A stretch of 64,000 nt of DNA from positions 6,758,609 through 6,822,608 of the forward strand of contig RPFO01000213.1 of the NCBI GenBank assembly GCA_009746045.1, in the 5' to 3' direction. The notes below the pieces were generated by a model. It did no database searches. It was not told the DNA's origin and was given only the letters and a program-made list of their open reading frames with translations. The stretch is from Mesostigma viride (lineage: Eukaryota > Streptophyta > Mesostigmatophyceae > Mesostigmatales > Mesostigmataceae). The position numbers and the translations under genes were made by a program. Shown here in pieces: positions 7,873 through 62,704 of this stretch. The stretch's first letter is position 1, and every line of letters starts with the position of its first letter.

Positions 7873-9191
7873 AGCAAGACTGTCGCACACACATAGGTTT
7901 CCTAAAATGGGTGGAGGCCTTCAACAAGGCCAGGGAAGAATGGGTAGTGCCAGATCCTCTTAGCCCTCTCACACTCCACCTGTCACACCTATTGACAAAA
8001 AGCCTGCAGGGTGCAAGCACTTGCGCCTGAAGTTTGTGTGTAAACATAAGCCAGCAGCAGATGGGTCAGTCATTTTCCATGCTAGACCTTGTGTGACAGA
8101 GTTCAAGGGCACCACTGATCTGACAGAGGCAGAGTTGTACACGCCAGGCATTCAGCAAACCTCCTTAAAAATCTTGCTGTCTGTCTTTGTGGGTCATCTC
8201 AATGACGGGGATGACTATGTATGTAAGGCTACAGACATTAAAAGGGCTTTCTTGAAAGGCTCACCTGAGATAGCACAACAAGTGTGGCATGGTCAGGTGT
8301 ATGTAGTCTCCACTCCCAGAGTTTGGGCAAAACACATCCCTCAGCAGTACCTGAAAGCCAACATAGGTGTTGAAGGGCTGCAATCAGCTCCTCGAATTTT
8401 CAGGATGTCAGCTCAGGCTGTGTTTGAAAAGCTAGGGGCTAGATATGATGATATAGACCCTTGCTTCTTTGTGGTCCCACACCCTCATGGCATACTCACC
8501 TTTGTGTGGCATGGGGATGATCAGCTGATTGCTGGGCCAAGGCGTGCTGTAGATGATTTTATTCAACAAGTGTCACAGCATTTTGAGATTGGCAAGCAAG
8601 TAGAGCTGGGCACCACTGCCATAAAATTTTGTGGCACAATGTTACAACTCCAGCAGCATCAAAACCAGTGGGTGTGTGCACTTTACTCTCCCAATGATTA
8701 CATGCACAGTTGCTTGGAGGTTTTGCAAACCAAAATCAAACCTGGAGCCTGTCCCACCATTAGAGGCAAGCTGGGGTGGTTGTGCTCAACTTGTGCACCT
8801 CACCTGGCTGTGGTTAGCAGAGTTGATGATGATGTCTTGATGCAAGTAGGTCACAAAGCCATCACCAAAACTCTCCAGGAAGGCCCTCCCCTTATCTTGC
8901 ATTCCTTGGATCTCCACAAAACCATTCACATCCAAGCTATGATGGATAGTTCCATGGAGTCCAGGCAGATTACCAAGTTGCAGGCACGGGAGTCAGGCTT
9001 GTATTTTGTGCAGAATGATGATGCACCCTTGTCTCTCATTTCATGGTACAGCCGGTTGCATAGACGCAAGGCTGTCAGCAGCAATGCTGCTGAGTGCAGG
9101 GCAGTGGTGTCAGCAGTGCTTCATGCCAGGTACTTGAACCATGTGCTGGTTTGGTTGCAGATGCAAGCAGGCAGCAATGCTGGGGTGGTGG
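7773..9191 (+). pseudogene. pol: E1 reverse transcriptase and proximal RNase H
   Basis: A short frame (7773-8030) covers the connector, then 8021 onward is open to the palindrome insertion. RT landmarks: LKFVCKHKPAADGS, TDIKRAFLKGSPE (first catalytic Asp), VEGLQSAPRIFRM, and WHGDDQLIAG (catalytic DD with His-Gly before it instead of the Tyr-Val usual in copia). Thumb/connection: IRGKLGWLCSTCAPHLAVVSR. RNase H begins at MMDSSMESRQITK with ISWYSRLHRRKAVSSNAAECRA (D and E). It is cut at 9191 by the P1 composite; the rest of RNase H lies beyond both insertions. Confidence 0.85.
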
Positions 9192-9397
9192 AGTTACGTT
9201 AAATAGTGCCGGAACCTTTTGCCGCCTGAGGCAAATCGGTCCGTAACACTATTTTGCCCGGAATAACCACTTCCGAGCACCCAAGTTAATTCGGCCGAAT
9301 TAACTTGGGTGCTCGGAAGTGGTTATTCCGGGCAAAATAGTGTTACGGACCGATTTGCCTCAGGCGGCAAAAGGTTCCGGCACTATTTAACGTAACT
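9192..9397. repeat. P1 left palindrome (206 bp, axis 9294/9295)
   Basis: Near-perfect to perfect self-complementary sequence centred on gg|cc in aattcggccgaatt. The arms pair through agttacgttaaatagtgccgg and its complement. The same sequence recurs at 9530-9735. Confidence 0.92.
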
Positions 9398-9529
9398 AAA
9401 ACCTGGCCTCGTGGAGGGGGGACGAAGAGCCCGAGACATCCGCCTAGGCCGCTGAGCACGCACCACTAAATGCGCCGGAGCTGCCTCAGTAAGGATTCGA
9501 ACCCCTGACCTCCAAGGTGCACGGGTTTT
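9398..9529 (-). other. U1 core with tRNA T-arm-like (box B) motif
   Basis: 132 bp with short terminal inverted repeats aaaacc/ggtttt. On the minus strand it carries ggaggtcaggggttcgaatcc (9505-9493 at its centre), a close match to a tRNA variable loop plus T arm and to the Pol III box B GGTTCGANNCC. Further along the same strand is a D-arm-like gtgctcagcggcctaggcg (9459-9441). The T arm precedes the D arm, the reverse of a normal tRNA gene. No complete cloverleaf was folded by eye. Confidence 0.5.
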
Positions 9530-9735
9530 AGTTACGTTAAATAGTGCCGGAACCTTTTGCCGCCTGAGGCAAATCGGTCCGTAACACTATTTTGCCCGGA
9601 ATAACCACTTCCGAGCACCCAAGTTAATTCGGCCGAATTAACTTGGGTGCTCGGAAGTGGTTATTCCGGGCAAAATAGTGTTACGGACCGATTTGCCTCA
9701 GGCGGCAAAAGGTTCCGGCACTATTTAACGTAACT
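9530..9735. repeat. P1 right palindrome (206 bp, axis 9632/9633)
   Basis: Same sequence as the left palindrome, ending cgtaact immediately before the right GGTGG duplication. Confidence 0.92.
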
Positions 9736-9853
9736 GGTGGCACACTTGCTCACTGACAGTCAGTCAGTCCTCAGCTTCCTTGCTAACCCCTATGCTGTGC
9801 ACACTGATCTTGACTGGGTGGTCCTTAAACAGGAGTCCACCTACTGGGAGTCC

Positions 9854-10261
9854 AGTTAGCTGAGATACCTCGAGGCTGACTTGTGGCCGGAGCCACACAG
9901 GGGAACATACAATGTGACCGGAGTTATTCTGGCGGAGACAGAATAACGGTGCCGAGCGCCGGTTGTGGTGCGACGCACACACGTGTACGCAAGTTACGTA
10001 GCTAGCAACTAGTCTAGTGGACGTTGTGCGTAGTAACGTTGCTCCAGGTCTAGAAGCCTCTAGAACCTGGACACGTGGCGGACAAGTGAGCGTAGTCCAG
10101 TTGTCCTAGGGATCTCGTGTGAGTGATGTGTCCACGACATATAATGTGTGCCCACATATGGAGTGAATAATGACAAGGAACGCCCGATCCCTGGCGTTGC
10201 TGCAGCCATCATTCTCACACTGAGTCCCCAACGTTTCCGACGTACATCTATATATCTAACT
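9854..10261. mobile_element. 408-bp solo-LTR-like insertion (AGTT...AACT, TSD AGTCC)
   Basis: Begins agttagctgag and ends atatctaact, flanked by AGTCC at 9849-9853 and 10262-10266. E2 lacks it (gggagtccacccg), which defines the boundaries. No coding frame. It includes a small hairpin (ccaggtctagaag...ctagaacctgg) and a TATA-like tatataatgtg tract. Ends and TSD length match the E2 and E4 LTRs, so it is probably a solo LTR of a related family, though its sequence is not that of any LTR in this window. Confidence 0.7.
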
Positions 10262-15334: not shown

Positions 15335-15791
15335 AGTTGGATCGAGTCTAACGACGATGGACAACTGCTGAGAGCTGAAAGGAAACGATTGTTGTATTAG
15401 CAATAATACAATGAGAGTGGTGGAAGCTTGAGGGCTCAGAATGGAACGTCTGGGCAAACTCGGGTGCTGCGGCACTCCCCAGTGCTACGCCTATATGCCT
15501 ATGGCGGTGCTACCTGCAGCACCTACCAGTGGACAACTGTACACTGCAATGCCATGCGACCACGTCACTAGCATCAACTACACTCGGCCCGTCCAGAACC
15601 GGATAACCCAGGTCTGGCGGGTCGAGCTAGAGTCTAGGCACAGTCTGGCACTAACCGCACATCGGTCCACATGACACCTCAGTACCGTACACCCTGCCGT
15701 ACAGTACTGAGGTGTCCCGCTCAGCCGCGGTAGGCAATACGCGGCGCGCAGGCCGGAAATCCGTGTGTCAGCCTAAGCATCTCATCTAACT
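15335..15791 (-). repeat. E2 3' LTR (457 bp)
   Basis: Minus-strand start agttagatgagatgcttagg, end ctcgatccaact. Flanked outside by GCTGC. Confidence 0.92.
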
Positions 15792-16855
15792 CCCATTATG
15801 TTTTCCTTTCAGGTTGAAGGCTAGCGACTTCAAGCCTGACCCTGCCCAGCTAGGAGACTGACTCCAAGCTGACTGAGGTGCTGAGCAACTGACACCCATA
15901 CTGCAACATCTGGACTGAAAAAGATGGGCCCCAGAACTCGTGCAATACTTGTGATGGCATCACGTTTAGCTCAACATGCCCGGGGAGTTCCTCCTCCTCG
16001 CGAGCTCACAAGGGAGATAGCTATGCCTGTCTGCCTATCCAGGGAGTGCATCACCAGCCAAGAGAGCCATTGTAAAAAATGCCAAGGTAACCGTTTAAGA
16101 GGTTCCATGTTGTTCCATCATCATCGCCCACTCAGAGAAAAATACCCAGCCAGGCTGGGTCAACTGAGCTCAGGTTACCTGCAACCTGAGGAGTGACAGT
16201 GGACAGGTTTATTGCACCCTGCACTGTCCATGTTGTACCTGCACAACATGTGAGGACCAGCCACCCCTGCCCTGCACAGAGGGGGCTGAAGTCCTAGTGA
16301 CAGGTGACAGGACTATGACATCCTGGACCTGGCCACGTTGCACCTGCACAACGTGTGAGACCAGCCACCCCTGCCCTGCACATGGTGACTGAAGTCCTGG
16401 TGACAGGTGACAGGAATATTTCATCCTGCACCTGTGCTGAGCACGTTGTACTAGACAACATGACAGCACCCATGCCTTTACTGCCACTGAACAGTGAGGC
16501 CAGGTGGCCCAGGATATCCACAGTGAACTGGGGTCCTGGGTAACCACCTGTCAAGGGAGCTTTGACCCTCCACTTGAATGGGGGCACCTGAGCCACTGAG
16601 CTCAAGGCCAATCCACCAAGGCATACGCCCTAGTGGAGAAAGGTGTGAGATACATCCCATGCCCACCTATGAAGGTGTGCATAACGAAATTCCATGGTGT
16701 TGAAAAAATCAAAACAGATTTTATTGGGCATAGGGCACGCAGATGTATGAAAAACAGACTCCAACCAACCCCCCTTGCTGGAAGCCACAACCTACCCCTT
16801 GGACCTGCCCAAGGGGTACTGGGTGACCTAGGCGGCCCTGGTGAACAGGACCCTG
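15792..16855 (-). other. E2 3' non-coding region
   Basis: Collinear with E1 10410-11480: polypurine tract next to the LTR, GC hairpin with oligo-T, two ~105-bp tandem copies, and an AATAAA signal (minus strand, near 16720). No conserved ORF between E1 and E2, so it is read as untranslated. Confidence 0.65.
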
Positions 16856-18734
16856 CTAGGCGTCCCCCCTATGGGGCAGGGTTGCCTGCTTGCCATAGGG
16901 GTTCATCAAGTGGTACAACAGCTGATATTGTTCAGCTGCCTGCTGAGGCACTTTAGTGAGTGCATCAGCAGCGTTGTGTTTGTCCTCCACGTGACGGGTG
17001 GACTCCCAGTAGGTGGACTCCTGTTTCAGGACCACCCAGTCAAGATCAGTGTGCACAGCATAGGGGTTAGCAAGGAAACTGAGGACTGACTGACTGTCAG
17101 TGAGCAAGTGTGCCACCACCCCAGCATTGCTGCCTGCTTGCATCTGCAACCAAACCAGCACATGATTCAAGTACCTGGCATGAAGCACTGCTGACACCAC
17201 TGCCCTGCACTCAGCAGCATTGCTGCTGACAGCCTTGCGTCTATGCAACCGGCTGTACCATGAAATGAGAGACAAGGGTGCATCATCATTCTGCACAAAA
17301 TACAAGCCTGACTCCCTTGCCTGCAACTTGGTAATCTGCCTGGACTCCATGGAACTATCCATCATAGCTTGGATGTGAATGGTTTTGTGGAGATCCAAGG
17401 AGTGCAAGATAAGGGGAGGGCCTTCCTGGAGAGTTTTGGTGATGGCTTTGTGACCTACTTGCATCAAGACATCATCATCAACTCTGCTAACCACAGCCAG
17501 GTGAGGTGCACACGTTGAGCACAACCACCCCAGCTTGCCTCTAATGGTAGGACAGGCTCCAGGTTTGATTTTTGTTTGCAAAACCTCCAAGCAGCTGTGC
17601 ATGTAATCATTGGGAGAGTAAGTGCACACACCCACTGGTTTTGATGCTGCTGGAGTTGTAACATTGTGCCACAAAATTTTATGGCAGTGGTGCCCAGCTC
17701 TACTTGCTTGCCAATCTCAAAATGCTGTGACACTTGTTGAATAAAATCATCCACAGCACGCCTTGGCCCAGCAATCAGCTGATCATCCCCATGCCACACA
17801 AAGGTGAGAATGCCATGAGGGTGTGGGACCACAAAGAAGCAAGGGTCTATGTCATCATATCTAGCCCCTAGCTTTTCAAACACAGCCTGAGCTGACATCC
17901 TGAAAATGCGAGGAGCTGATTGCAGCCCTTCAACACCTATGTTAGCTTTCAGGTACTGCTGAGGGATGTGTTTTGCCCAAACTCTGGGAGTGGAGACTAC
18001 ATACACCTGACCATGCCACACTTGTTGTGCTATCTCAGGTGAGCCTTTCAGGAAAGCCCTTTTAATGTCTGTAGCCTTACATACATAGTCATCCCCATCA
18101 TTGAGATGACCCACAAAGACAGACAGCAAGATTTTTAGGGATGTTTGCTGAATGCCTGGCGTGTACAACTCTGCCTCTGTCAGATCAGTGGTGCCCTTGA
18201 ACTCTGTCACACAAGGTCTAGCATGAAAATGACTGACCCATCTGCTGCTGGCTTATGTTTACACACAAACTTCAGGCGCAAGTGCTTGCACCCTGCAGGC
18301 TTTTTGTCAATAGGTGTGACAGGTGGAGTATGAGAAGGACTAAGAGGATCTGGCACTACCCATTCTTCCCTGGCCTTGTTAAAGGCCTCCACCCATTTTA
18401 GGAATCCTATGTGTGTGCGACAGTCTTGCTCTATCTGTTCATAAGAAAGAGGAGACATTTTAGCCACATCATGCTTGCCCAATCCAAATGAGTTGGGATG
18501 AAGTTTTTGGTTGTGAACCAAGTCTGCCACACAGGGTTCTTGCCCTGGGGCATACTTGGGTGTAGCAAATTTTACAGAAGCAATGTTGGTGTTAAGAAGT
18601 TTTTCAAGAGAAATTTTGAAATGATTCAGATCAACACCACCCATGTCCTGGATGGATAGTCTATCACTGGATATGACACCAGGGTAACAGAGAAAAGGAT
18701 CCCCCAACAAAGCATTCCCTTTATAACCTTCCAA
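16856..18734 (-). pseudogene. pol: E2 reverse transcriptase and RNase H
   Basis: Three overlapping frames (18734-18207, 18210-17464, 17674-16856) together carry the connector, RT and complete RNase H, so at least two frameshifts are present. RT motifs: TDIKRAFLKG, VEGLQSAPRIF, WHGDDQLIAG, IRGKLGWLCSTCAPHLA. RNase H motifs in order: MMDSSM (D), NAAECRA (E), LLTDSQS (D), HVEDKHNAADALTKV (terminal motif). It uses element RNA as template for cDNA in cytoplasmic particles. Closest known type is Ty1/copia by the RNase H terminal motif and RT-RH adjacency, but HGDD replaces YVDD. Confidence 0.85.
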
Positions 18735-20335
18735 TACCTGAAAAGGTGTGGGATACCGAGTATAGTCAACATGACCTGACCTAATACCTTGAGGGATGAC
18801 TGCCCTGAGAAATCAGCCACATGGTGCCAGGGTGAAGGTTCCAAAGGCATATGGGGCACAGCCAGGGCACTGATAATGCTGACCTGGGCTTGTGTGTCCA
18901 CTGCAACCATAAATGGGCTATTGTCATTCTGCCCAACCTTCCCCACCTTAGCTGATCCTGCAGCAGTTTGAGCTTTGGCTCTATGAGCTGCTTGTAAAAT
19001 GCGAACAGCGTCTGCTAGGCTGCGTTTGGAAGGTGCAGCTAGTGGCTGAGCTATGTTCACACTTGAAGAGGTGATAGGTTGCTGATCACCTGTTTTGCCA
19101 ATGTGACCCTCTGCTGCAGGGGGCCAAGCCTGCAGTGACTGCCTGCAATCATCAAGGGTGACCTGGGTGTCACAGTGGGTGTGGCTCTCACACTCACCAG
19201 TGGGTGTTCCAAACAACCACTCACTGGGCAACGCTGGGATGCCAGGCAACTGTACAGGGCTGTCGGCCAACAGCTCTTCCTCCTCTGCCACGTCTGACAC
19301 AGTTGGAAAATACAATTTCATCCTGTGAGGTGAACACCTGTGAATCTTTCCCGTGTCATTGTGTTTAACTAACACTGTCCTGCCAGTGGTGTTAAACTTT
19401 AGGATGGTGGCTGGCCCATGCCAGGTACCCACCTTGCCTAGTCCCGACTCCTTGTAGAATAGGACCTGATCCCCTTCTCTGAAGGTGGGACGTGGATGCT
19501 TTGCATCCTTGACAGCTAACCTGCTAGCTGTCTGTGCTCGCTGTGCGTTGTATAGGGCTAGTACCTCAGGTGGATAAATGCCTGCATGCAATCCATCTGG
19601 TGTAATGATCACCCCTTGTGGGGTTTTCATGAGTGGCCTCCTGTTGAGGACTTGGCACAACCTGGTGGACCACAGAGCTCTGTCAGCATATGACCCACTG
19701 TCAGCCAGCAGATTGCCATCTTCTTTGGCTACAAGGGTTTTAATGGACCTGATGGCCCTTTCAATAATGCCTTGCCTCTCATGATCTTCTAGCCCAGCCA
19801 GATCAATAGCCTCACACCCTGGTTCATTGGCAAGACACGTGAACTGCTGATCCAGTAACAATGCCTCCACAGGGTAGTACCTGGCCTGAGCAATCAAGAG
19901 AGCCCTGAGCAACTGTGTCTTGTCCATTCCAGGTAATGGTTCAATGGTTGTGTACCTTGACCATGCATCTTTAAGTGCCAAGTAAGATTGTCCTTTGATA
20001 TGAAAGACATCTCCTACCACCCTGCCCTTGCACTTAGGTGGGGTAGCTACATGCCACTTAGGGGGTTTGGGTGCATTGAACTGACAATGCTGGCAGTGGG
20101 ATCTGACCACCTGGCATGCACGTCTGAGTGCTGCCCCCCCTATTGCTGCTGCCACCACCTCTGCACTCACTTCATGCCCATAAAGGAAATGCAACTGCAA
20201 AGCAAGCTCCTGAAAACTGATATGAGCATCCTCTGCTGGGGACACTCTGCACACCTTGGGAACCATAGATGTGAAGGTTGGTTTAGAGACATAATCTTCT
20301 GAAACCAGCTGTAGCACCTTTCCAGAACTGCTCAC
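18626..20335 (-). CDS. pol: E2 integrase plus protease-like segment
   Basis: A 569-codon frame. Residues ~49-84 form the zinc-binding domain (LHFLYGH, CQHC). DDE residues by count are D109, D162 and E192. Residues ~285-345 form a basic C-terminal domain (FREGDQVLFYKESG). A linker holds the motif ADAVRILQAAHRAKAQ at ~441, equivalent to DIVQALQRAK in E4 and DIIRALQNSK in E3, and the protease-like DTQAQVSII follows at 480. The frame shifts at ~18750 before the ILG-type motif, which is completed in the next frame. There is no ATG-defined protein start; in life this would be part of a gag-pol polyprotein. Confidence 0.85.
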   Translation of the reverse strand: MSSSGKVLQLVSEDYVSKPTFTSMVPKVCRVSPAEDAHISFQELALQLHFLYGHEVSAEVVAAAIGGAALRRACQVVRSHCQHCQFNAPKPPKWHVATPPKCKGRVVGDVFHIKGQSYLALKDAWSRYTTIEPLPGMDKTQLLRALLIAQARYYPVEALLLDQQFTCLANEPGCEAIDLAGLEDHERQGIIERAIRSIKTLVAKEDGNLLADSGSYADRALWSTRLCQVLNRRPLMKTPQGVIITPDGLHAGIYPPEVLALYNAQRAQTASRLAVKDAKHPRPTFREGDQVLFYKESGLGKVGTWHGPATILKFNTTGRTVLVKHNDTGKIHRCSPHRMKLYFPTVSDVAEEEELLADSPVQLPGIPALPSEWLFGTPTGECESHTHCDTQVTLDDCRQSLQAWPPAAEGHIGKTGDQQPITSSSVNIAQPLAAPSKRSLADAVRILQAAHRAKAQTAAGSAKVGKVGQNDNSPFMVAVDTQAQVSIISALAVPHMPLEPSPWHHVADFSGQSSLKVLGQVMLTILGIPHLFRYWKVIKGMLCWGILFSVTLVSYPVIDYPSRTWVVLI

Positions 20336-20619
20336 TGCTCTGACAGTGGGGCATGCAGATGAAGAGGTGAAGCAGGCACACTCAAGCCAGCATGAGAGGG
20401 AGACTCACACTTCTTGCCGTAAGGAGGCCGCTTGCAGTCCTTGGGGTCACCGTGGGGCGGCCCGTGGCACTTGTGGCACAGGACGTCCAAATGCCCCAGC
20501 TCGTCCACGTTCTTGCGGCAGGTGGGCCGCGGTGGTACTTCATGCCACAGCGGGTGCACCGCTGAGAAGACTTGTCCTCCTTGTCCTGCTTGTTGTTGTT
20601 GTTGTTTTTTTTTTTTTTT

Positions 20620-20655
<36 letters not shown>

Positions 20656-23299
20656 TTGTTGTTGTGTTGTTGCTGGAGCTGCCCCCCTTGGAGGGAGACT
20701 GCCCCTTACCCTTGCCCTTGCCCCAGCCCCTGCCCTTGCCCTTGCCCTTGCCCTTGCCCTTGCCCTTAAACATTTGTCCCAGCAGGGACTTGACTTCTGC
20801 CATAGTGACAGGTCTCTTGCTCCTGTCTTCCCTCTCCCTATCCTCCTCCTCCCTCTCTTCCCCCCTGACCCTCTTTACAGAGGTGCCCATGGCCCCCTGG
20901 CTAAGGGGAGCCAAGGCCAGCTTGATATAATCCAATGCCTCCTTCATGTCCTCCCAGTACTTTGCCATTCCTGTGCAAGCATAGCGTAGGTGTTTTTGTC
21001 AAGTTTGAGTTTCTCAAGGAAGAACGCAGCAAGAACTTGTGATCTAGCTGCTGGACATCAGGACGTGCTTTGATGGCTAGCTCATATTTCTTTGTCTCAG
21101 CCACATAGTCCACTGATGTGACCCTGTATTCCTCTACCCACCTGAATGCCCCATATATGTCCACAGATGAGGGGGTGGAGAGGAGGTCAGTTAGCTCCTT
21201 CATGAAAGCCTCCCAAACTGCCCTAGCCTGCGTGTCCTGCCACTTGGGATACCTACGCTGGAAGACAAGAATGAGATTCTGAATCTGAGAGGAGGACTGA
21301 TGGTAAAAATCCCCCTGCATGAGAGATCCAAACCAATTCTTGACATTCAGTTCCTCCCTAGCCAGCTGAAGAGAGAGAAGTGCATGATTCCCCTGCTCCC
21401 TAGTATACCCCTCAGGCAGCCCCCTGACATTAATCCTATCCACAGGACGGTTTTCATTGTAAGTGGGCAACCTAGAGGGGGATGCAGGGGGAGAGGGAGA
21501 AGATGGTGTTGCTGCTGCAGCATTCACAGGAGAGACATGCTGAGAGGGAAGTGCTACTTGAGTGAGCTGAGCAGGAGGGCAAACATGGGCTGTGTAGGAG
21601 GGTTAGGCAACATAGGGGTGGGCTGGGTGGGGGTGTGAGTGTGTGTCACTTCCCGCCTCCTGCTGCGGGCCTCCTCCCAATCATGGAAGGTGGGAGAGAG
21701 GGACACGTCATCGTCAGTAGGGTTAGTAAGATCATGATGCAGCCAGGTAGGCAACCACCTACCCGCCCCTCAGGATGGCATTGTGCAGGAGCTCCAGGAG
21801 TCGCACCAGGCGAACCCTGTTGCCCTGCACCCTCCTCCCTGAGAGGAGAGCCTGCAGGGCAGGCAGCAGGTCGTCGCACACCCTGCGTGTGCCCGCTTGG
21901 AGGTTGGGCAAGCCCAGGATGTGCGTGATAATCGCACACACCAGGCTGCCCGCCTCCGCGACGTGCATCTGCTGGCTCCTGTCGGCCAGCCCACGGAAGG
22001 AGGCTGTGGCTGCCTGTATGGCACGCCACACGGCCTCATCACCCAGGGTGATGAAGTCCGACCTTCCAGGTCGCCGTCCAGCCGTGCTGGCTGCTGCCCT
22101 GCGGTGGGACCCTGAGGCCCCTCCGGCCCTGCCAGGGCCTTGTCCTTGTTGCGACTAGAGGGGGCCTGCCCCCCAGAGCCGCTGGAGGTGCCCGTGACAC
22201 CCTCCATGGGGGCTGCATCCCCCGCCAGCGCCGGAGGCGCCGGCGTCGCTGCCGGGGTCCCTGCGACCCCGGGCGCTTGTGTCGCCGCCGGGGTCCCTGC
22301 GACCCCGGTGGCCTCCTCAGCCACCTGGCCCCCCACGCTGGGCGGGGGAGCCCGCTGCTGAGGTTGGACCCTCTGACCTGCCAGAGGGTCCTGGGTGGCT
22401 TCACCACCCATGGGCGTGTTGGGGCGTCTGCCGCCCCGCGCTCCGTCGCAGGCGGCATCGCAGCCGCCTCACGCCTCTCCGGGCCCCAGCCAACTGGCGT
22501 GACTTGGGGCCACGGCCCAACGGAGTCAGCGGATCTCCTGTCTGGCGACCACGCGCAGCGCCTCTCTCTGACGCTGCCTGGACGCCCACTGATCAACAGT
22601 GCCGGGGTTGCGCCTCGGCCGATTGGCGAAACACCACAGCCAAACTGCCACCTGAATCAGGTGGAACTGCATCCTCAGACGACCCTCGATCACCGTTGCG
22701 CCCGATGAACCTCTATCGCATGTATCGGCTCATCTCCTGTCAACTGAAAACGTTGAATGATCCAGCCGTTCACCGAAATGAACGCTGGGATGTCGTCCTC
22801 CCCAATGGGGAGAAGATGGGGTAAGCGCCCGAACTCGACAGGGGCGGAACATGCGCCCCATACCGGTCAATGTCCATGGTGGCCATCTGTCGGCCCACGG
22901 AGAGATTACCAGACGTCGCAGGCGTCTGTGACGAAATCTCGAGCGAAGGCCGTGGCCTCGCAGGCGGCACCTCCCCGTCCTCCTCCGAGGAATCACTCCG
23001 CTCACGACCCCCGTCACCTGCGACGGGGGAATTACGTGCCCGGGGGACCTGCCCCCCAGGTGCCATGGCGGACGAACCGCCAGTGGCAAACGGACGACCG
23101 CTCGCCATCCCCGGGCGCCGGGCCCCACCTGCGGGGTCCGACGCCTGGGGTGGTCGGCGACCACCGTGCGGAAGGTGACGTTGGGCGTCACCCTCGCATC
23201 GTTGGTGGAGGGCGTGCCCTCCGGCGAGAGTCGGGGTGAGGTGCGCCTGGCAGGCGCCTTCCCCTTGTTGTTGTTGTCGTTGCCGTTGTTGGAAGCCAT
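20332..23299 (-). pseudogene. gag: E2 gag region
   Basis: ATG at 23299 starts MASNNGNDNNNKGKAPARR, 41 bases inside the 5' LTR edge. The reading then passes through at least five frames: 23299-22730, 22596-22039 or 22411-21770 (Pro/Ala repeats), 22031-21759 (VWRAIQ... helical segment continuing into RLVRLLELLHNAIL), 21754-20901 (capsid-like), 20968-20540 (GK repeats and AAC-derived tract) and 20559-20332 (Cys/His cluster CHKCHGPPHGDPKDC). It shows the complete Gag layout that is truncated in E1. Role: structural particle protein. The AAC tract here is interrupted by a homopolymer run (20608-20622) that shifts frame. Confidence 0.7.
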
Positions 23300-23327
23300 A
23301 TTTTTTTTTTTCGGAAAAAAATAGAAA

Positions 23328-23340
23328 GCTTTTCAGTCCA
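23328..23340 (-). promoter_or_regulatory. E2 primer-binding site
   Basis: Minus strand tggactgaaaagc directly abuts the 5' LTR. TGG is the complement of the tRNA CCA end. The primer tRNA was not identified. Confidence 0.65.
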
Positions 23341-23793
23341 AGTTGGATGGAGTCTAACGACGATGGACAACTGCTGAAGCTGAAAGGAATGATGTTGTAT
23401 TAGCAATAATACAATGAGAGTGGTGGAAGCTGAGGGCTCAGAATGGAACGTCTGGGCAAACTCGGGTGCTGCGGCACTCCCCAGTGCTACGCCTATATGC
23501 CTATGGCGGTGCTACCTGCAGCACCTACCAGTGGACAACTGTACACTGCAATGCCATGCGACCACGTCACTAGCATCAACTACACTCGGCCCGTCCAGAA
23601 CCGGATAACCCAGGTCTGGCGGGTCGAGCTAGAGTCTAGGCACAGTCTGGCACTAACCGCACATCGGTCCACATGACACCTCAGTACCGTACACCCTGCC
23701 GTACAGTACTGAGGTGTCCCGCTCAGCCGCGGTAGGCAATATGCGGCGCGCAGGCCGGAAATCCGTGTGTCAGCCTAAGCATCTCATCTAACT
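23341..23793 (-). repeat. E2 5' LTR (453 bp)
   Basis: Pair of the 3' LTR, ending AACT next to the PBS on its inner side and GCTGC on its outer side. Confidence 0.92.
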
Positions 23794-25649: not shown

Positions 25650-26007
25650 GGGCATGTCACCACTATATACTCTATCCAGAGTTCATGAACTGCATGGTCA
25701 TGAACTGCATGGTCACGCAGGACCTGGTAGCAGGCCCGAGGTAGGGCCCTGGTGAAGAGGTCAGCCAGGTTAATTGTAATTCCCGGCGACATGGCCATAG
25801 CGCATGCTGATGATGCCCGCCTCCACCTTCTCCCGCGTGTAGTGATACTTGACGTAGTTGTACAAGCTAATGCTTATACTTTTTATGCGGAAACCTTTTT
25901 GCTAAGGTTAACGCATATTCTTACATCCTGCGCAGGATGTAAGACTTTGCGTTAACCTTAGTTAAAAGGTTTGCGCATAAAAAGTATAAGCGTTAGCTTG
26001 TACAACT

Positions 26008-26252
26008 TAAAACCTTTGCGCGTTGGGGCGGAATATTAAGCGGCTCCCTAACTAGGGCTTACTTCCGCATCGAATTACTAATTCGATATCGAATTACTGA
26101 TTCGATATTAATCCCGGGAAGGTCCGATATCTACCTCGCTAGGCGATTAATTAGGTCCGACCGGTGCCCCGGCGGATCCTCCCAAATAATCCCTACTCGG
26201 CACTGTCCCCACGAGGTTTCGAACCCATGACTTCCGCGCCGCGCTGGCTCTA
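26008..26252 (-). other. U2 core, with T-arm-like motif on minus strand
   Basis: Minus strand carries ggaagtcatgggttcgaaacc (box B-like, centred at 26215-26226), then gtgccgagtaggg (D-arm-like, 26203-26191), in the same T-before-D order as U1. Several GAATTA/TAATTC and cgatatcg short palindromes occupy the distal half. Confidence 0.5.
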
Positions 26253-26407
26253 AGTTGTACAAGCTAACGCTTATACTTTTTATGCGCAAACCTTTCAACT
26301 AAGGTTAACGCAAAGTCTTACATCCTGCGCAGGATGTAAGAATATGCGTTAACCTTAGCAAAAAGGTTTCCGCCTAAAAAGTATAAGCATTAGCTAATTG
26401 TACAACT

Positions 26408-26652
26408 TAGAACCGGCGCGGCGCGGAAGTCATGGGTTCGAAACCTCGTGGGGATAGTGCCGAGTAGGGATTATTTGGGAGGATCCGCCGGGGCACCGGT
26501 CGGACCTAATTAATCGCCTAGCGAGGTAGATATCGGACCTTCCCGGGATTAATATCGAATCAGTAATTCGATATCGAATTAGTAATTCGATGCGGAAGTA
26601 AGCCCTAGTTAGGGAGCCACTTAATATTCCGCCCCAACGCGCAAAGGTTTTA
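26408..26652 (+). other. U2' inverted copy of the U2 core
   Basis: Inverted, nearly identical copy of 26008-26252. gggttcgaaacc is at 26434-26445 and gtgccgagtaggg at 26457-26469 on the plus strand. Confidence 0.75.
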
Positions 26653-28938
26653 GGTTGTACAAGCTAATGCTTATACTTTTTATGCGGAAACCTTTTTGCT
26701 AAGGTTAACGCATATTCTTACATCCTGCGCAGGATGTAAGACTTTGCGTTAACCTTAGTTAAAAGGTTTGCGCATAAAAAGTATAAGCGTTAGCTTGTAC
26801 AACTGACGTCGATGTGTTCCGCTTGGGGTGCATGGGATCCTTGCCCAGCGCTATACTGCCCCTGTGTTGTCGCAGTACACGGGGGTGGGCTCGCTGGCAG
26901 GGTCCCCTATCTCCTCGAGGATGCGCCTGAGGGGGACCACGAGCTGGGTTGCCGCGCATGCCGCGATATACTCAGCCTCGCAGGAGGAGAGTGACACGAC
27001 GGGCTGCTTGCGGCTGGCCCACTCGATGGCGGCACCACGGTATACAGCCCCAGGTTGCCGGTGACTGAGCGACGGGTCTCAGGGCAGCTCCCCCAGTCGG
27101 CGTCCGTCCACGCCTCGAGTCCCCCCTCGCGACCGTAGGTGAAATGGACTTGGTCGTCACGAGGTAGCGGATGACACGGAAGGCTAGCTTCACGTCGCCC
27201 CTCGGTCGGTGCCTGCATGCACTGCGCCAGTTCAATGGTTGACAGCAAAGGCTACATCCGGGCGAGTCCAGATGTGGGCGTATGACGAGAGCACCGACAA
27301 TCGACTGATAAAGAGTGATGTTCGCTGCATCGCACAGTCCCCCCTCGCGACGTACGCTCCCGGGCACGACATGGGTAGGGATCGACAGGGTGAGAAGAGG
27401 AAAGCCCAAAGCGGGCATGCAGCGATGGCCTCTATATAGGGCTCTTGGTGCAGGGTGAGGGAATGGGTGTCACGGTCCACATGCACGGATACACCGAGGA
27501 AAAGGGAGGGGTTGTCGGACTCGGTGATCTGAAAACGAGAGGCAAGACGAGAGGTCCACGCAGCTAGCCACTGAGGGCATGGGGACGCAGCAAGGATATC
27601 CGTCAACGTGCACGAAAGCAAAAGCACGACTGACGATGGGTAAAAATAGAGACATGTGTCTGTTTGGCTGTCACGTGGCACCGTCGGAAACGAGGTAGGC
27701 ACTAACTAAAGGTTCGGTGCCAATTCCGAGGGGCCTGACGGATGCCATAGAGGTTCCGCTTAAGTCGCCACACCATGACGTTGCCGTCAGGTGCGTGCTG
27801 CTCGAAACCATGGGGGGAGGGCGCACAAACACGGATTCCTCAAGCTCGGCATACAAGAAGGCTAGCTGTAAGTACATCGAGCTGCTTGATGCAGTATCCA
27901 GACGACACTGCAAAAGCTAAAGCAAGGCGAATAGTGGAACTGCGCACCGTCGGTGGGCCGGGCTGAAAACATCGTTGAAATCTATACCCTCGCGCTGGGC
28001 AAAGCCCTTTACATCAAAACGAGCCTTAATAATGGCGCCCGTCCGGCCTTCACAGCAAATACCTATACCTTGACGGAAGTACCTTGGCATTGGCAGGCAG
28101 GGAAGAAGGATCAGCACCAGCTCGTATACTGCATGGGATTCTATGCTGTCGAGTTCGCTGCGCATGGCCGGCTGCCCGCCATTCGGGACTTGCATTGGCA
28201 TCACGAAAAGAAGCCGGCAAAGGGGCTGCAGCATGCAATGGGGGTAAGATGCACCTCATCACAGATGTCACGTACAAGATGATACTGGGGAAAATACCAG
28301 GCCCAGCGGGGGGAAAGACGGGAGAAATGATAGCCAGGTTCTGTGTGCTCTGTTGCGAGGGGTGCCTGTGCGAATTCGCTAGGCATCATTTCATTTTCAG
28401 TGACTGTTACCATGGCTGCCGCAGGCCGGGGTCCTGCAAAGAGTTGACGACTTGCTGAAGGCGAGCAGCACTGGAAGTCGGTGCAGGCGAGGTAGCCGTT
28501 GGTGCGGACACATAGGTCGACAGGGGCTCCAGCGCGGCGTGCATGTGGAGTAGCAGCAGTACTTGGACTTGGGCTCGACGACGCAGCCGGTGGTGGTGAG
28601 CCCCCTTCACCACCAGAAGTCCCCACGAGGTGGGCAAGTAATCTGATCATAGCCATGCAGGAGGTAGCATGTAGACCTGTTACTACAAACTAAGCTAAGG
28701 CTATGGCTGGTTGTGTACCGTGCGTTAGCGGGGCACGTGACTAGGTATGGTGGCTCGGCTAGGTATACATCCTAGGCATGGCTGCCATGGCGGCTATCGG
28801 ACTGCCAATGGTTCAAGCTAGGGCTATTCTAGCCCGCAGGGGGCGACCACATCTTGTGGTTGATCACCAGGTCCCCGGCCCCTCCAGTACACCTTGGGCT
28901 TGATCTGCTTGTGGCGGAGGTACCAGGCCACAGGTCGC

Positions 28939-55379: not shown

Positions 55380-56076
55380 AGTTAAGCTTTCTTAGCACAT
55401 GCAATGTGAAGGATATGGTTGCAATGCAGCAATGTGTGATATGGTTGGAAACGGAGCTTTGTTAAAATCGGATAATGTTTACAGCGCTCACACACTTGAG
55501 GCTTGTACACGCGCTTGCCAAGTCAAGGCACAACACGTGAGGTGGGCTCGCAAGAGATGCCCATTTGGCACTGGCCTATTGTTTATATACTTGTGCACTG
55601 TGCTTGCTAGTCCTGAGCAGCCTAGCAGGCCTGCTCAGTAATAACACCCCCGGTACAGTATTCACTACCTGTACAGCGCCCGACTCCTATACAGTAGGTC
55701 TGCCATACAGGCACAGTGACCACAGAGCACAGTCCACAGTGACTATTGCATCTGCACCTAGAAGTCCAGGACTAAGCCTGCGGTACCAACAGACCACAGG
55801 TTAAGGTTCCTATTTCCTGCGTACGACGTATTAATCCAATACCGTCGTAGGTACAGCACCTAATTCCTGTCAGCCCAGGAATTACTGTCGACCCCATATG
55901 TCGTCGGCAAATATTCACGTCCGACTTAGAAGAACAGCCGGCTCGCGCTCGCGCGCGACCGGGAAGTCGGAACGCCATAACTTTCTTGATACTTGTCGGA
56001 ATGAACTCGTTCCGGTGCCGCTGGAATCGCAGAGATATGCCGAATCAGGATCACGCCAATGCGCTTGGCGTTAACT
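55380..56076 (-). repeat. E4 3' LTR (697 bp)
   Basis: Direct repeat of 62705-63400. Plus-strand start agttaagctttcttagcac, end cgcttggcgttaact. Confidence 0.93.
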
Positions 56077-56824
56077 CCAATCCTTTCTTTTCTTGAGCTG
56101 TAGCAGCTCACACAAGTCTACATACAAACACACACAATGGGTACTGGATATCCTCCCCAGACTACAAGTCACAACCCGCTGGGCATGACAGTCAGCTTGG
56201 ATTCCTTATTATATGTACATAGCACCCATACTGGCTCAGGAGCACAAACAAATTACAATGAGTCCCTATCCCTTCACGGGAGGCTCGTTGTGTTACCCAT
56301 GTACAAGAGGTTGGCCAACTGTGGCAGCCCATAGGTGTTCAGTTAAGAACTTGAGAAGTATGTACAACCTTCAGGACCTTAGGCGAAACCCCACAGATCA
56401 CCCACAACAGCTCATCAGAAAACATTGCTGACCCCCAGACGGGAGTCGGCGCCGGTCTGCTGCCCCTTATCGAACCAGACACAACATCTACGCGAAGCAC
56501 ATGCAAAACACAAGCTCCCATACTCGTTCCAACCGTGGAAAATCAGGGGACCTGTCGCCACCTCACCAGCATGGTGGATGGGTCAGCCAGTCCGTGAAAC
56601 TCCGCCTTAAGACGGCACCAGGGAATCGAACCCCGCCCACAAACCACAGATCTGGGGAAACCTCAGACTGAGATGAAAACCCCAGATAGACATCTCTCCA
56701 TCAGAGACAATGTCAGACATTCCCACACCAGAGACATGTCTCACCCCTCAAGGTGTGCTCAGGATTATGTACAATCAAGCTCCCAGCCTGATATCCAGAG
56801 ACTTAAGCACCCAGCTCTCAGCTT
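56077..56824 (-). other. E4 3' non-coding region with T-arm-like motif
   Basis: About 0.75 kb. Sense strand has gcggggttcgattccctgg with ggggttcgattccct at 56634-56620, matching the E3 motif in form and in distance from the LTR (~545 versus ~465 bases). Ends with the polypurine tract. Confidence 0.65.
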
Positions 56825-59800
56825 TTAGACAGATAGACCGACTTGACAGTCAGCATTCATGAGCTTCCTCAGTACATTGTACTGGGCTGGGGCCTTGTGT
56901 GGCAGCTTTGTCAATGCATCAGCAGGGTTCTCCTCGCCAGGGATATGCTTCAAGTCAACCAAACTGGCCAACTCCTTCAGCAACAAATAATCCAGGTCCC
57001 GGCTCCTGGCCAGCTGCTTGTGAACAAACTGGACCATACCCATGCTGTCTGTTAGCAACAACGTCTCCATCTGCAAGGTCCAAGGGGTAACTGAAGCCAG
57101 CTCCAGCATTAACTCCTTTATGTACAGGCTGGACTGGATCCCCTCGCATATGGCCCTGCATTCTGCCACATCTGAACTGATACAGACCCTCTTCTGCAGT
57201 CTGCTGTACCAGCTGAACAAACTTGCCCTGCTCTGATAAAAAGCAAACAGAGCAGCAGATCTCCCCCTGACCTTGGTAACCTGGCGAGCATCCATGGAAC
57301 TGTCAACAAAGATCTCCAAGGTGATAGGCTGGGTAAAGTCAATCCCAGACAAAATCAGATCAGGGGTACTCTCCACCAACCGGGCTATGACTCGAGGCTT
57401 CTCATCCTCAAGCACCTCATCAGGCATTCTGCTATGGACCATCAAAGACGGACCACAGATGCTGGCAAACCAGGCCCACATGCCTCTCAACTCAGGTCCT
57501 GCAGCCTGGGTGATCTTCTCTGGCAAGGCCTTCACAATGGTCTGTTTATAATCTCCTCCAGCCTGAAGCCTGATACTCCACTCCCCGTCCCTCCTGAACA
57601 GGGTAGCCTGCATTCCACAGAACACTACAGGCTTGTTGGGCTCCTGCCACAGCTCCTTGCCCAGTGAAAACTTGCCACTGATGACAGGAATAAACTTCTT
57701 CAGCCAGGTCGTGGGGGCTAGCAAATGCAGATCATCTCCATGCAAACTAGCATACACTGGCAGACCCTCCCATTGGGCCAGCAGCAAACAGGGATCAACT
57801 GAAGACACTCTCAAGCCACACTCACTGATCAGAGCTTCCTGCAGCGTGAGTCTCCAGATGATTGGGCTCGACCTGAGTCCTTCCAGGCCCTTCAGAATAA
57901 CCAGGAATTGTTGATGCAGCTCCAGCTTCCAGATGGCAGGCACCTCAACACAGTAAGGCTCATCCTGCTTCCACACCCTCCTGGCCACTTCTGGATCAGA
58001 TTTTAAAAATGCCCTCTTGAAGTCCAGCAGCACTGATGACATAGCTGCTCCCCTGTTCAGCAACCCCACGTAGAGACATAGCAAAATTCTCCATGTGTCG
58101 TGTAGCATCCCTGGCGTGTATAGCTCCTCTCCTGGCAGACTCCCCGTGCCGTGATACTCATTCAGGACAGGCCTGACATGGGGCACTGATACCTCATCCA
58201 CAACCTTCCTCTTCAGCACAAATCTCAAAGCAAGCTTCCTTGATGCTGGGGGACGTCTGTCTGTTGGTGCAGCACACTCAAACTGCAACCACTCCTCCAA
58301 TGCCTTGGAGAAGGCGAGCTTCCAAGCCTCAAACAAAGTAGGCGAGCTCATCTCTTGGACCAGCTGGTCATATGTCAAAGGAGAGTGTGCAGCAAGGCTC
58401 CTGTGAGTTATGCCAATACTGCTGGGGTGCAACACAGCTGGAATAACCAAACTGGCCGCTGGGGGCACCTCCCCTTCATCCCATTTTACACCCTTGACCG
58501 GCTTGGCCCTGCACCTGACTGGAAATGTTGTCCTGAAATTTTCTAGGGGAATCATCCCCCAGCCATCTCTTCTCAGAGCTGTAGCTCTGATAGAAATCCC
58601 AGGATTGCCCAGAAAATTCTGACCCAAAATCACAGGGCCATCATAGTCCTCTAGGACAAGGAAGGTCACATCCACACCCATGACAGGGGCAGTAACCTCT
58701 CCCAACACCCTTAGATGCGTCCTACCACTGAAATCAGACACCCAGGGGCAACTTGGTTCTCCGACCAGCAGTTCTCCTGTATGCTGAGGTCCCATGACAG
58801 AAACCTGTGCATTGGTATCTATCTCCATGGCAGCTACCTCAGGTTCATCCAACTGGACAAGCTTGGACACCTTAGGCTCCTTCTTGGCTCTTTGCAAAGC
58901 CTGTACAATATCTGATAGACGCACACCCCTAGGCCTGGTGTCGGGCCGTTCCGGAGGTGCAGCCTGTCCGCCTGCTTGCCCAACCACCGTATGTGAAGGT
59001 ACCCCAGGGGCCGGGCCAGGGTCACCCTGAGGGCTCGATACAGCTGTAGCACCCTGATCAGGAAGCTCCACGTCACCCCCGCCTTGTACACCAGCGGGCA
59101 CCTGGAAGAGGTCTCCTTGATTACCTCCCCGGGGACGGATCTTTGACCAGGACAGACGGTGCACTGCTTGGGAGCCATCAATGGCCACCCAGCACTTATG
59201 GCCAGCGGCTTCTACTCGGGTCACCACCCCATCATGCCAGCTGCCACGTTTCCCTGGAAAGCTTGGTTCCTTCCACACAACAACCTGTTGTCCAACGTTA
59301 GGTTCTAGGACACTCCAGCCCTTGTCTTTCTGCCTCAGCTTGAGGAACTTGGCCTCTAGCTTCTCCTTCCATGCCTGCTCAGCATCAGCTGGCAGCATCC
59401 TGGTATGCAGCATAAGAGGATTGATGGCAATGTCACCAAAGAACATGGGAGTCCTCAGGTTCAGCCTGTCCTCCACAGAACGTAGCCATGCAGATGTCAC
59501 AATGGCAGATGACGTCCTTGGAATCCTCTCCACCAGCAGCACAGTCTTGATCTCTTGGATGGCTCTCTCCACCACCCCTTGCTGGCCGTGGCTCTCCCTG
59601 GGTGTAATCAGCAACTCTGGAAACTCTGGCAGGTTCTCACAGCACTCAAACTGAATGTCACACTGCAACAACTCCAACCCAGGGTACCTGCTCCTTGTCA
59701 ACTTCAGAGCAGCAATCAATGTAGGCTTCTCCATGTCAGGCAGGATCTCTAGGGTCTTGTACTTGGTATATCTGTCCACTGCCACCAGCAGCTTCAAACC

Positions 59801-60382
59801 CCTGATTCTCTGAATATCTACCTGCACATGGCCTGGCTGCAAAATAGGAGTCCTGGCATGAGACTGCTTGGGCTTTCTAGCAACTAGCCTGCACTTGCAA
59901 GCTTGAGCAACCTGTTGGCAGATGGAGTACAACTCACTTCCTCCCAGCCGTCTAGCAACTTGCAAAGACTGAGCTGCATGGCCAAACATGGTATGCAACC
60001 TTGAGGCAATGTCATACAAGAGAGAAAACCTTTTATTGTCATTATTAGCACTCAAGGTATGTACAGATCCCTTATGTACAGGAGGCACCAGGGTCGTGCC
60101 TGTCAGACTGTCTCCAGCCCTATCCTCATCCTGACCATCCTGTGCCAGTCCTGCACGGTCAGAATGCTTCTGAGATCCACCTGGGTCCACATCACCAGGT
60201 CCTACCTCAGGCTCAGCACCGCCATGGCGGGCACGTTGGCGAGTAACCACTGCAGCTACAGCTGGCATACTCTCTGTGGTAACCAAGCTTGCCCCATCGT
60301 GTCCAATAGGCTCTTTCACTAGAGCATGGGGCTGCCCCTCACTGCTGTCACTAGCAGCTTCATTACACACCCCTGGGGGCAC
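56825..60382 (-). CDS. pol: E4 pol: integrase, protease-like, RT, RNase H
   Basis: 1185 codons, intact from the region after the gag TGA; no ATG lies near its beginning, so it must be expressed as a gag fusion. Integrase: H130/H135 (LHTMFGH) and C162/C164, then D189 (HVQVDIQRI), D242 (LLQCDIQFE), E272 (GVVERAIQEIK). Basic C-terminal domain ~350-416 (WKEPSFPGKRGSW, HRLSWSKIRPR). Linker DIVQALQRAKKEPKVSKL at 491. Protease-like DTNAQVSV at 522 and ILGQNFL at 585. RT: DFKRAFLK at 787, LEGLRSSPIIW, HGDD 881-884, RGMWAWFASICGP. RNase H: D1027, E1074, D1112, HIPGEENPADALTKL at 1146. Domain order INT-PR-RT-RH is unambiguous here. Confidence 0.93.
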   Translation of the reverse strand: MPPGVCNEAASDSSEGQPHALVKEPIGHDGASLVTTESMPAVAAVVTRQRARHGGAEPEVGPGDVDPGGSQKHSDRAGLAQDGQDEDRAGDSLTGTTLVPPVHKGSVHTLSANNDNKRFSLLYDIASRLHTMFGHAAQSLQVARRLGGSELYSICQQVAQACKCRLVARKPKQSHARTPILQPGHVQVDIQRIRGLKLLVAVDRYTKYKTLEILPDMEKPTLIAALKLTRSRYPGLELLQCDIQFECCENLPEFPELLITPRESHGQQGVVERAIQEIKTVLLVERIPRTSSAIVTSAWLRSVEDRLNLRTPMFFGDIAINPLMLHTRMLPADAEQAWKEKLEAKFLKLRQKDKGWSVLEPNVGQQVVVWKEPSFPGKRGSWHDGVVTRVEAAGHKCWVAIDGSQAVHRLSWSKIRPRGGNQGDLFQVPAGVQGGGDVELPDQGATAVSSPQGDPGPAPGVPSHTVVGQAGGQAAPPERPDTRPRGVRLSDIVQALQRAKKEPKVSKLVQLDEPEVAAMEIDTNAQVSVMGPQHTGELLVGEPSCPWVSDFSGRTHLRVLGEVTAPVMGVDVTFLVLEDYDGPVILGQNFLGNPGISIRATALRRDGWGMIPLENFRTTFPVRCRAKPVKGVKWDEGEVPPAASLVIPAVLHPSSIGITHRSLAAHSPLTYDQLVQEMSSPTLFEAWKLAFSKALEEWLQFECAAPTDRRPPASRKLALRFVLKRKVVDEVSVPHVRPVLNEYHGTGSLPGEELYTPGMLHDTWRILLCLYVGLLNRGAAMSSVLLDFKRAFLKSDPEVARRVWKQDEPYCVEVPAIWKLELHQQFLVILKGLEGLRSSPIIWRLTLQEALISECGLRVSSVDPCLLLAQWEGLPVYASLHGDDLHLLAPTTWLKKFIPVISGKFSLGKELWQEPNKPVVFCGMQATLFRRDGEWSIRLQAGGDYKQTIVKALPEKITQAAGPELRGMWAWFASICGPSLMVHSRMPDEVLEDEKPRVIARLVESTPDLILSGIDFTQPITLEIFVDSSMDARQVTKVRGRSAALFAFYQSRASLFSWYSRLQKRVCISSDVAECRAICEGIQSSLYIKELMLELASVTPWTLQMETLLLTDSMGMVQFVHKQLARSRDLDYLLLKELASLVDLKHIPGEENPADALTKLPHKAPAQYNVLRKLMNADCQVGLSV

Positions 60383-60412
60383 CCTCCAGGGTTCAGGGAT
60401 GTGTGCAGGCTC

Positions 60413-60418
60413 AAGTCA
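60413..60418 (-). promoter_or_regulatory. E4 gag-pol in-frame stop, TGA CTT GAG context
   Basis: Minus strand GAT CAT TGA CTT GAG CCT: the zinc-knuckle frame ends at TGA and reopens immediately in the same frame as pol. E3 has CCA TGA CTT GAG at the same boundary (43595-43587). Candidate translational readthrough signal. Confidence 0.6.
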
Positions 60419-61668: not shown

Positions 61669-61774
61669 GAAAGGAAAGTGCCAAGTGTTACCACTCAGGC
61701 AAGACCACCACGGCTGGCCCCAGGCGCGTCCTGGTTCTCCTTGTCGCTGTCGTCGTCGCTGTCGCTCACCACAA

Positions 61775-62002
61775 TCAGCTCTGGTACCCTGCTACCTGCT
61801 GCGCCGTCGTCGACCCGCTGTCGGCCCGCGATGACTGAATCGTCACCGTTGGTAAAGTAGACAGGTGACAACCCGTCGTTGGCCCTCGCGGATTGTACGT
61901 TGGCACCTCGTGGTCGCCAAGTGCCTCGTCGCCTAGCCCAGCGACACCCCCTGCTCCTACCTCAAGGTCACTATCGTACCCAAGAGGTGCAAACTCTCCC
62001 AA
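61775..62002 (-). pseudogene. E4 upstream ORF B remnant
   Basis: Acidic, Gly-rich frame beginning near GEFAPLGYDSDLEVGAGG. It lies between ORF A and gag and in the same frame as ORF A, separated by a TAA. No domain recognised. By position it corresponds to E3 ORF B. Confidence 0.35.
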
Positions 62003-62050
62003 CGCGTCACACGAACGCGAAGGGGCGGGGCAGCTCCTGAAAAGGAACTC

Positions 62051-62611: not shown

Positions 62612-62704
62612 TCACCACCGGACGAGCTCCTCTCGTCGTAAACGCTGCACACCGCAACCGGCAACGACCCTCCTGGCCGTTCCGCTGAGACTGGTTGTAA
62701 TTTG

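Follow-up and report, generated by a model that had tools for sequence, protein, structure and literature searches.

The window, i.e., the whole stretch of 64,000 nucleotides of Mesostigma viride DNA analysed in the present work, harbors four copia elements (E1–E4), a solo LTR-like insertion, and two non-coding elements, A and B, bounded by palindromic terminal repeats (P). The copia-related features with which the two elements can be compared are the following:

15335..23793, minus strand: copia element E2, with LTRs at 15335-15791 and 23341-23793, ends AGTT..AACT, and target site duplication (TSD) GCTGC.
17113..17117, minus strand: empty target site corresponding to element A, within E2, a related copia copy.
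55380..63400, minus strand: copia element E4, with ends AGTT..AACT and TSD GAAGG, the candidate integrase type.
9854..10261, no strand: solo LTR-like insertion in E1, AGTTAG..CTAACT, with TSD AGTCC and an empty site in E2.

In E3, by contrast, one LTR end reads ATTT, and none of the copia LTRs tested is an end-to-end palindrome. The coding regions, at 6015-9202 (plus strand), 18626-20404 (minus), 40413-43592 (minus, E3), and 56825-60415 (minus, E4), seem to have the order gag-integrase-protease-RT-RNase H, with the integrase before the protease; in the classic copia order, the protease precedes the integrase. In the Pfam scans, the integrase core of the copia ORFs gave a weak rve match (E 0.014, below the cut-off). 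A retropepsin-like stretch (VDTQAQVS.., VDTNSQVS.., or IDTNAQVS..) is followed by the RT, with an aspartyl protease match at E 0.059, also below the cut-off; the protease model has a mean pLDDT of 49 (low confidence), and the fold search was led by retropepsins, none of them at E 0.001. The alignment of E3 with E4 skips the integrase core up to the C-terminal part; to judge from it, E3 seems to be without an integrase core and may itself be non-autonomous.

Element A occupies positions 9192-9735 and has the structure P-U-P, with a monomer length of 544 bp:

9187..9191 and 9736-9740, no strand: TSD GGTGG in the flanks of element A, with the empty site in E2.
9192..9397, no strand: family A left P, a perfect 206-bp palindrome with ends AGTTACGT..ACGTAACT.
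9398..9529, minus strand: family A core U, 132 bp, non-coding, with 42 genomic matches listed.
9492..9513, minus strand: tRNA T-arm/B-box-like stretch GGAGGTCAGGGGTTCGAATCCT within core U.
9530..9735, no strand: right P of family A, with the same sequence as the left one.

Each of the two Ps is its own reverse complement across all 206 bases with zero spacer, and the element reads GGTGG, AGTTACGT..ACGTAACT, GGTGG from flank to flank. In the near-palindrome scan of the whole window (spacer 0-12), these Ps have 103 bases per arm, and one block-shuffled control reached 9. The inverted relation between the two ends extends a further 6 bases into U (AAAACC..GGTTTT), giving arms of 212 nt. Since the tRNA-like box lies at the 5′ side and GGTTTT at the 3′ end, the minus strand is probably the sense strand of U. 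The host site is the RNase H part of E1. In the related copy E2, which is 95% identical over 5.8 kb, the site is uninterrupted at 17113-17117 (E2 minus strand), and the frame of E1 without element A and one TSD reads through it as in E2. Both the structure and the insertion are observed directly.

The first-pass annotation of this DNA had described two identical, self-complementary 206-mers around a 132-bp core, which the sequence comparison found to be exact, and a discrete mobile insertion with TSD GGTGG and an empty site in E2, which the uninterrupted E2 site bears out. It had correctly equated the ends of element A with those of the E2 and E4 LTRs (AGTT..AACT in both cases), and mobilisation by the integrase of these elements, as it proposed, is probable in view of the copia-type ends and TSD. 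The layout was described there as unlike known LTR, TRIM, MITE or foldback layouts, and none of the known families compared here fits. The same annotation pointed out that P acts as a direct and an inverted repeat simultaneously. As each P is self-complementary and both are identical, this view is supported, and the double LTR-like and TIR-like nature of P seems central to the mechanism, beyond a problem of naming.

A second family is represented by element B, a P1-U-P2-U′-P3 unit of 949 bp at 25856-26804:

25851..25855 and 26805-26809, no strand: TSD GACGT of element B; the joined flanks read through EHIDV/KYHYTREKVEAG.
25856..26007, no strand: family B P1, 152 bp, a palindrome with 6 unmatched pairs.
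26008..26252, minus strand: family B core U, 245 bp, with a B box at 26215-26225 on the minus strand.
26253..26407, no strand: family B central P2, reversed relative to P1.
26408..26652, plus strand: family B core U′, an inverted copy of U with few differences and a B box at 26435-26445 on the plus strand.
26653..26804, no strand: family B P3, oriented as P1, with 1 difference in 152.

Because the joined flanks read EHIDV/KYHYTREKVEAG, which we take to be a copia RNase H stretch, the whole 949 bp represents one insertion. P1 and P3 differ at 1 position when compared directly and at 13 when one is reversed; this shared orientation is what LTR replication predicts. The six unmatched pairs of P1 are also present in P3 and, reversed, in P2. 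Two of these six are G-U wobbles, and wobble pairing as the cause of palindrome upkeep was rejected. Both A and B begin with AGTT and finish with AACT, and there is no detectable similarity between their Ps (53 of 300 shuffles score equally well). The near-palindrome scan retrieved no other zero-spacer palindrome of such size from the rest of the window. Further AGTT-ended palindromes were absent from the neighbouring 200 kb (L001-L020), where 18,000 of the 264,000 scanned bases (window included) read N; one low-complexity near-palindrome with a spacer of 1 was found there, in L012. Elements A and B and the solo LTR (starting at 9192, 25856, and 9854, respectively) have all inserted into copia sequence coding for RNase H, which may reflect either a target preference or chance.

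The assembly holding the window comprises 440 Mb in 2243 contigs. Searching it with the U of family A retrieved at least 42 matches at 99-100% identity, a lower bound in that 40 of 1174 first-look candidates were scored. Thirty of these 42 matches were taken as loci and correspond to 19 distinct insertions, the window copy included; of the remaining 12, two fall in arrays already covered and ten were left out (one each on C178, C147, and C2, three on C113, and two each on C102 and C100), the coordinates of the C102 pair being compatible with a +- dimer, where + is the orientation of U in the window. Since this sample consists of near-identical copies, the sampled copies are probably young. An exact 5-bp TSD surrounds the whole unit in all 19 insertions, from monomers to five-unit arrays (17 directly, the other two after their partly deleted left P had been located). 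A 6-bp TSD with a T outside was rejected, being seen in 4 of 19, about the chance level.

Five of the 19 insertions are monomers and 14 are arrays of 2-5 units with shared Ps: eight P-U-P-U′-P dimers, three + - - arrays, and one each of + + - -, + - - -, and + + - + -. The unit P-U-P of the first-pass annotation therefore stands for the monomers and has to be extended to P(UP)n for the 14 arrays. The outcomes named there as refuting the element (a single copy, variable boundaries, or TSDs of another length) are excluded for the sampled copies, all 19 having a 5-bp TSD and AGTTA..TAACT boundaries. Whether U varies around a constant P was a check proposed there, and the outcome was the reverse: in family A, U is nearly constant, and P varies, mostly in mirrored pairs. 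In the arrays L026, L034, L042, L022, and L038, we also noticed palindromes reduced to one half, an additional arm, or arms with deletions that end near the palindrome centre, such as hairpin processing might leave.

The U of family B retrieved at least 87 matches, again a lower bound with 40 of 283 candidates scored; 43 of them approach full length, 42 are short owing to a repeat inside U, and 2 are partial. The four B dimers retrieved all have a 5-bp TSD (CCTCC, which sits within a CCT repeat, CACGG, AAATC, and GTAGA), so that the count is five of five with the window copy. Neither the window nor the P and U genome queries yielded an autonomous element bounded by palindromes. Moreover, exact patterns and copia proteins had no match in viral contigs, one P pattern had none in prokaryote genome contigs, and element A had none in phage records.

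The ends AGTT..AACT and a 5-bp TSD are thus common to E2, E4, the solo LTR, all 19 A insertions, and all five B insertions examined. Because ends and TSD length match those of E2 and E4, we infer that a copia-type integrase inserts A and B. Scanning the window for AGTT..AACT with a TSD gave 15 pairs (100 to 12,000 bp), the majority of which probably arose by chance; up to 1500 bp there were 4 pairs against about 1.3 expected, two of the four sharing one end. A direct relationship between the copia LTRs and either P or U was rejected: when the Ps and Us of both families were compared with five LTRs (that of E1 being taken one to three bases off its ends), no significant similarity emerged except for a 17-nt match between the P of B and E3 (2 of 300 shuffles).

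The 19 A insertions contain 62 P positions, of which 50 are full length; the 7 with small length changes and the 5 with large deletions were excluded. Among the 50, which comprise 15 distinct sequences, 45 are perfect palindromes. Relative to the window P, the mirrored pair changes number 38, of which 13 are distinct, against 11 single changes, and independent change of the arms would give about 0.3% mirrored changes. P stays mostly a perfect zero-spacer palindrome because most changes occur in both arms. Seven of the 11 single changes represent one arm of a mirrored change found in another P; on this comparison, some Ps of family A are best described as hybrids, with arms from two palindromes. 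The window B copy looks like a hybrid palindrome too, since three of its six changes are states found mirrored in other copies. Such hybrids exist uncorrected, and arm-from-arm copying is therefore not universal. In the four retrieved B dimers, the eight outer Ps are all perfect, in four versions and with no unmirrored change, and one of the four central Ps is imperfect (L053).

The terminal Ps can also be compared within an insertion. In the 15 A insertions with both of them at full length, they are identical in nine and different in six, by 2, 3, 4, 8, 12, and 14 positions; in four of these six, all differences are mirrored changes, whereas a fifth combines a mirrored with a single change and the sixth has two single changes. 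In 4 of the 15, then, the terminal Ps differ and both are perfect palindromes, which ordinary LTR replication, deriving both ends from one template, does not predict; change after insertion or gene conversion may also have contributed to these differences.

The inverted junctions are strongly polar. The 24 junctions in family A are +- in 15 cases, -+ in one, and direct in eight; adjacent pairs among the listed family B matches, taken from the match coordinates, are +- in nine cases, -+ in none, and direct in three, five of the nine +- pairs being seen as sequence (the window copy and L051-L054). In other words, all but one of the 25 inverted junctions (15 of 16 in A and 9 of 9 in B) have the tRNA-like box of U next to the shared P. 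Random polarity and independent junctions would give P = 7.8e-7, an optimistic value in that related arrays share junctions by descent, the true value being larger. All 14 multi-unit A arrays have + at the left end and - at the right, with the other end of U outside. In the dimers L029 and L044, U and U′ differ at sites that are variable elsewhere too, so that simple fold-back of a single molecule does not account for all dimers.

The only significant similarity shared by the A and B cores is the 22-nt stretch resembling a tRNA T-arm/B box (0 of 300 shuffles). The B box lies at position 27 in one core and 28 in the other, counted from the P edge, an agreement with a chance of about 0.03, and the window contains 5 B boxes against 0.3 expected. 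The T-arm/B box is not the 3′ end of a tRNA; it is the only recognisable part according to the tRNA and RNA-family searches, and a full tRNA in U was rejected. An A box was not seen in the cores by eye. By inspection, the A core begins with AAAACC.. and ends with ..GGTTTT, and the B core begins with TAAAACC.. and ends with ..CTCTA (..GGTTTTA in U′); neither start nor end resembles a PBS or a PPT. Microrna-model matches of P in the RNA-family search mirror its hairpin, score below the gathering cut-off, and were discarded; a hammerhead ribozyme had no match in either element. A sense T-arm-like sequence, GGGGTTCGATTCC, similar to that of the A and B cores, also occurs in the 3′ non-coding parts of E3 and E4 (39945-39955 and 56622-56632, both on the minus strand).

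The reading that we favor, tentatively and as something short of probable, is that A and B stand for two families, both multi-copy, whose mobile units P(UP)n are non-coding and non-autonomous, are inserted by an integrase, and regenerate their ends by fold-back copying. A copia-type integrase, presumably borrowed, would insert whole units or arrays. In the replicating intermediate that we infer, one P arm would be copied from the other: the strand would fold back at the palindrome and prime its own extension, and a shortened end, such as that of an RNA starting inside P, would thereby regain the lost arm. The palindrome would replace the LTR strand transfer, the primer-binding site, and the polypurine tract. 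Fold-back would occur at one specific end, the simplest candidate being the 3′ end of the first-strand cDNA; with an RNA intermediate, this would place the tRNA-like box just after the 5′ P on the sense strand of the transcript. Extension without resolution would give P-U-P-U′-P, to be inserted unchanged, and direct tandems, mixed units (L029, L044), and hybrid palindromes would need template switching or recombination in addition. Self-priming fold-back on P would thus explain jointly the upkeep of the palindrome, the independence of the ends, and the one-sided inversion. Against it, the direct junctions (8 in A and 3 in B) require a further step, e.g., template switching, and plain fold-back predicts opposite orientations of P1 and P3, whereas the window B copy has them in the same orientation. 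Host correction of chromosomal palindromes could be an alternative source of the mirrored changes. That the units form a class of retro-elements in which palindromes replace the LTR cycle, with head-to-head dimers as a natural product and a borrowed integrase, is a narrower proposition that we consider doubtful.

An ordinary TRIM whose LTR happens to be palindromic, replicated through tRNA priming and two strand transfers and forming arrays by LTR-LTR template switching, is an explanation that we regard as unlikely. Terminal direct repeats of 152-206 bp and a monomer of 544 bp fit the definition in PMC6934838, where cases without a clear PBS but with tRNA-like stretches are also reported; ends and TSD are of the copia type, the nine A insertions with identical terminal Ps and the direct P1 and P3 of the window B copy behave as LTRs would, and strand transfer between two RNAs could produce hybrid palindromes. 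However, the terminal Ps differ in the other 6 of 15 A insertions, in four by mirrored changes alone, inspection revealed no PBS- or PPT-like start or end of U, and the mirrored changes and the polarity of the inversions would be left unexplained. A DNA element, either cut-and-paste or of the foldback/MITE type, whose arrays arose by recombination at P and moved as composites, with the host correcting quasipalindromes by template switching, is improbable to much the same degree. It would accommodate a non-coding unit with terminal repeats that are also inverted and free to differ, arrays of 1-5 units within one TSD, and hybrid palindromes, which fit recombination at the palindrome centre. Nevertheless, recombination at palindromes should yield +- and -+ junctions equally, and 24 of 25 are +-, so that a DNA-only cycle with host palindrome correction, possible in itself, leaves the polarity unexplained; moreover, the outer Ps form direct rather than inverted repeats in the window B copy, ends and TSD are those of the copia elements E2 and E4, and the Pfam scans of 10 window ORFs revealed no transposase.

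A hairpin-ended linear replicon, similar to parvoviruses or hairpin telomeres, with closed P ends, DNA replication, head-to-head dimers resolved at P, and insertion by an integrase, could give rise to palindromes with zero spacer, changes in mirror image, ends independent of each other, and inverted dimers on one side only. We consider it very improbable, as no replication or resolution protein is known for these non-coding elements, and alternating concatemers (-+) would be expected, whereas a single -+ junction was seen. As to an assembly artefact or the in-place rearrangement of a single insertion, long palindromes are hard to sequence and array lengths may be mis-assembled in places; yet the 19 insertions, each in other flanks and with its own matching TSD, four more in family B, the empty site in E2, and the copies on many contigs with different flanks make this scarcely credible.

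With regard to known systems, adeno-associated virus (AAV) and other parvoviruses possess self-priming terminal palindromes, form head-to-head dimers that share one palindrome, and correct their ends arm to arm. The genomic arrays of A and B would fit terminal palindromes of this kind that yield head-to-head dimers; in contrast to parvoviruses, A and B have no capsid and no Rep gene (the 132- and 245-bp cores being too short for the Rep endonuclease), their hairpin is simple and without side arms, and they show a precise 5-bp TSD and integrase-type ends. Foldback elements and MITEs are non-coding, with long inverted repeats, a TSD, and many copies; A and B differ in that each terminal repeat is itself a zero-spacer palindrome and in their polar multi-unit arrays. 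Perfect Ps fit a direct and an inverted orientation equally, whereas in the window B copy, with its asymmetric Ps, the outer pair is direct. A SINE, which would have the A and B boxes of a tRNA-type promoter, a TSD of variable length, and a tail rich in A or T, was also considered and rejected: a B box is present, but an A box was not seen, there is no tRNA, and the TSD is constantly 5 bp. The likeness to copia lies in the AGTT..AACT ends and the 5-bp TSD shared with E2, E4, and the solo LTR; PMC5659011 describes LTR elements whose ends are not TG..CA.

The nearest in plan are TRIMs, defined in PMC6934838 by terminal direct repeats of 100-250 bp and a total below 1000 bp; for bivalve TRIMs, the same paper describes a tRNA-like stretch just inside a terminal repeat and also remarks on self-priming. 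A and B resemble them in having a short non-coding core between terminal repeats, a size under 1 kb, and a tRNA-like stretch; family A (206/544 bp) and the window B copy, a dimer (152/949 bp), lie within these limits, and arrays of at least three units exceed 1 kb. They differ from TRIMs in a palindromic repeat that changes in mirror image, in terminal repeats that may differ, in having no PBS or PPT seen, and in inverted arrays inserted as single units. Retrozymes, according to PMC4918200, are small non-autonomous elements with terminal repeats and a variable core, and A and B resemble them in this; the hammerhead ribozyme that a retrozyme would carry in its terminal repeat has no match in A or B. 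In the literature searched, with most subscription papers lying outside it, there was no precedent for palindromic LTRs or TRIMs, self-priming inverted dimers, or palindromic terminal repeats of this kind.

Any linear mobile DNA must restore its ends, which LTR elements do by terminal redundancy and strand transfer and parvoviruses by hairpins. The A and B families look like integrase-inserted elements that restore their ends with hairpins, and the insertion of inverted multi-unit arrays as one piece, seen in most of the sampled copies, suggests that the ends of this mobile DNA are copied in an unusual manner. As the plan is shared by two families without detectable homology of P, it would be either a convergent or an old trait, and the mechanism can be tested on genome data through the mirrored changes and the one-sided inversions. 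In addition, A and B would provide the genome with perfect inverted repeats in many natural copies, and effects on small RNAs, on the stability of the genome, and on its assembly would be likely.

Other repeats in the window deserve a brief mention. Two partial LTRs of the E1/E2 type, at 12637-12923 and 14155-14437, are inverted around 1.2 kb, and their inner 114 bp are identical. At 2108-3412, the 5′ LTR of E1 was not seen, and E1 is bordered on its 5′ side by a tandem repeat of about 125 bp. Finally, two elements at 1170-1530 and 28938-29340 share the same start, ATCACTATACTATAAA, which resembles Helitron 5′ ends and is followed by palindromic satellite-like repeats.
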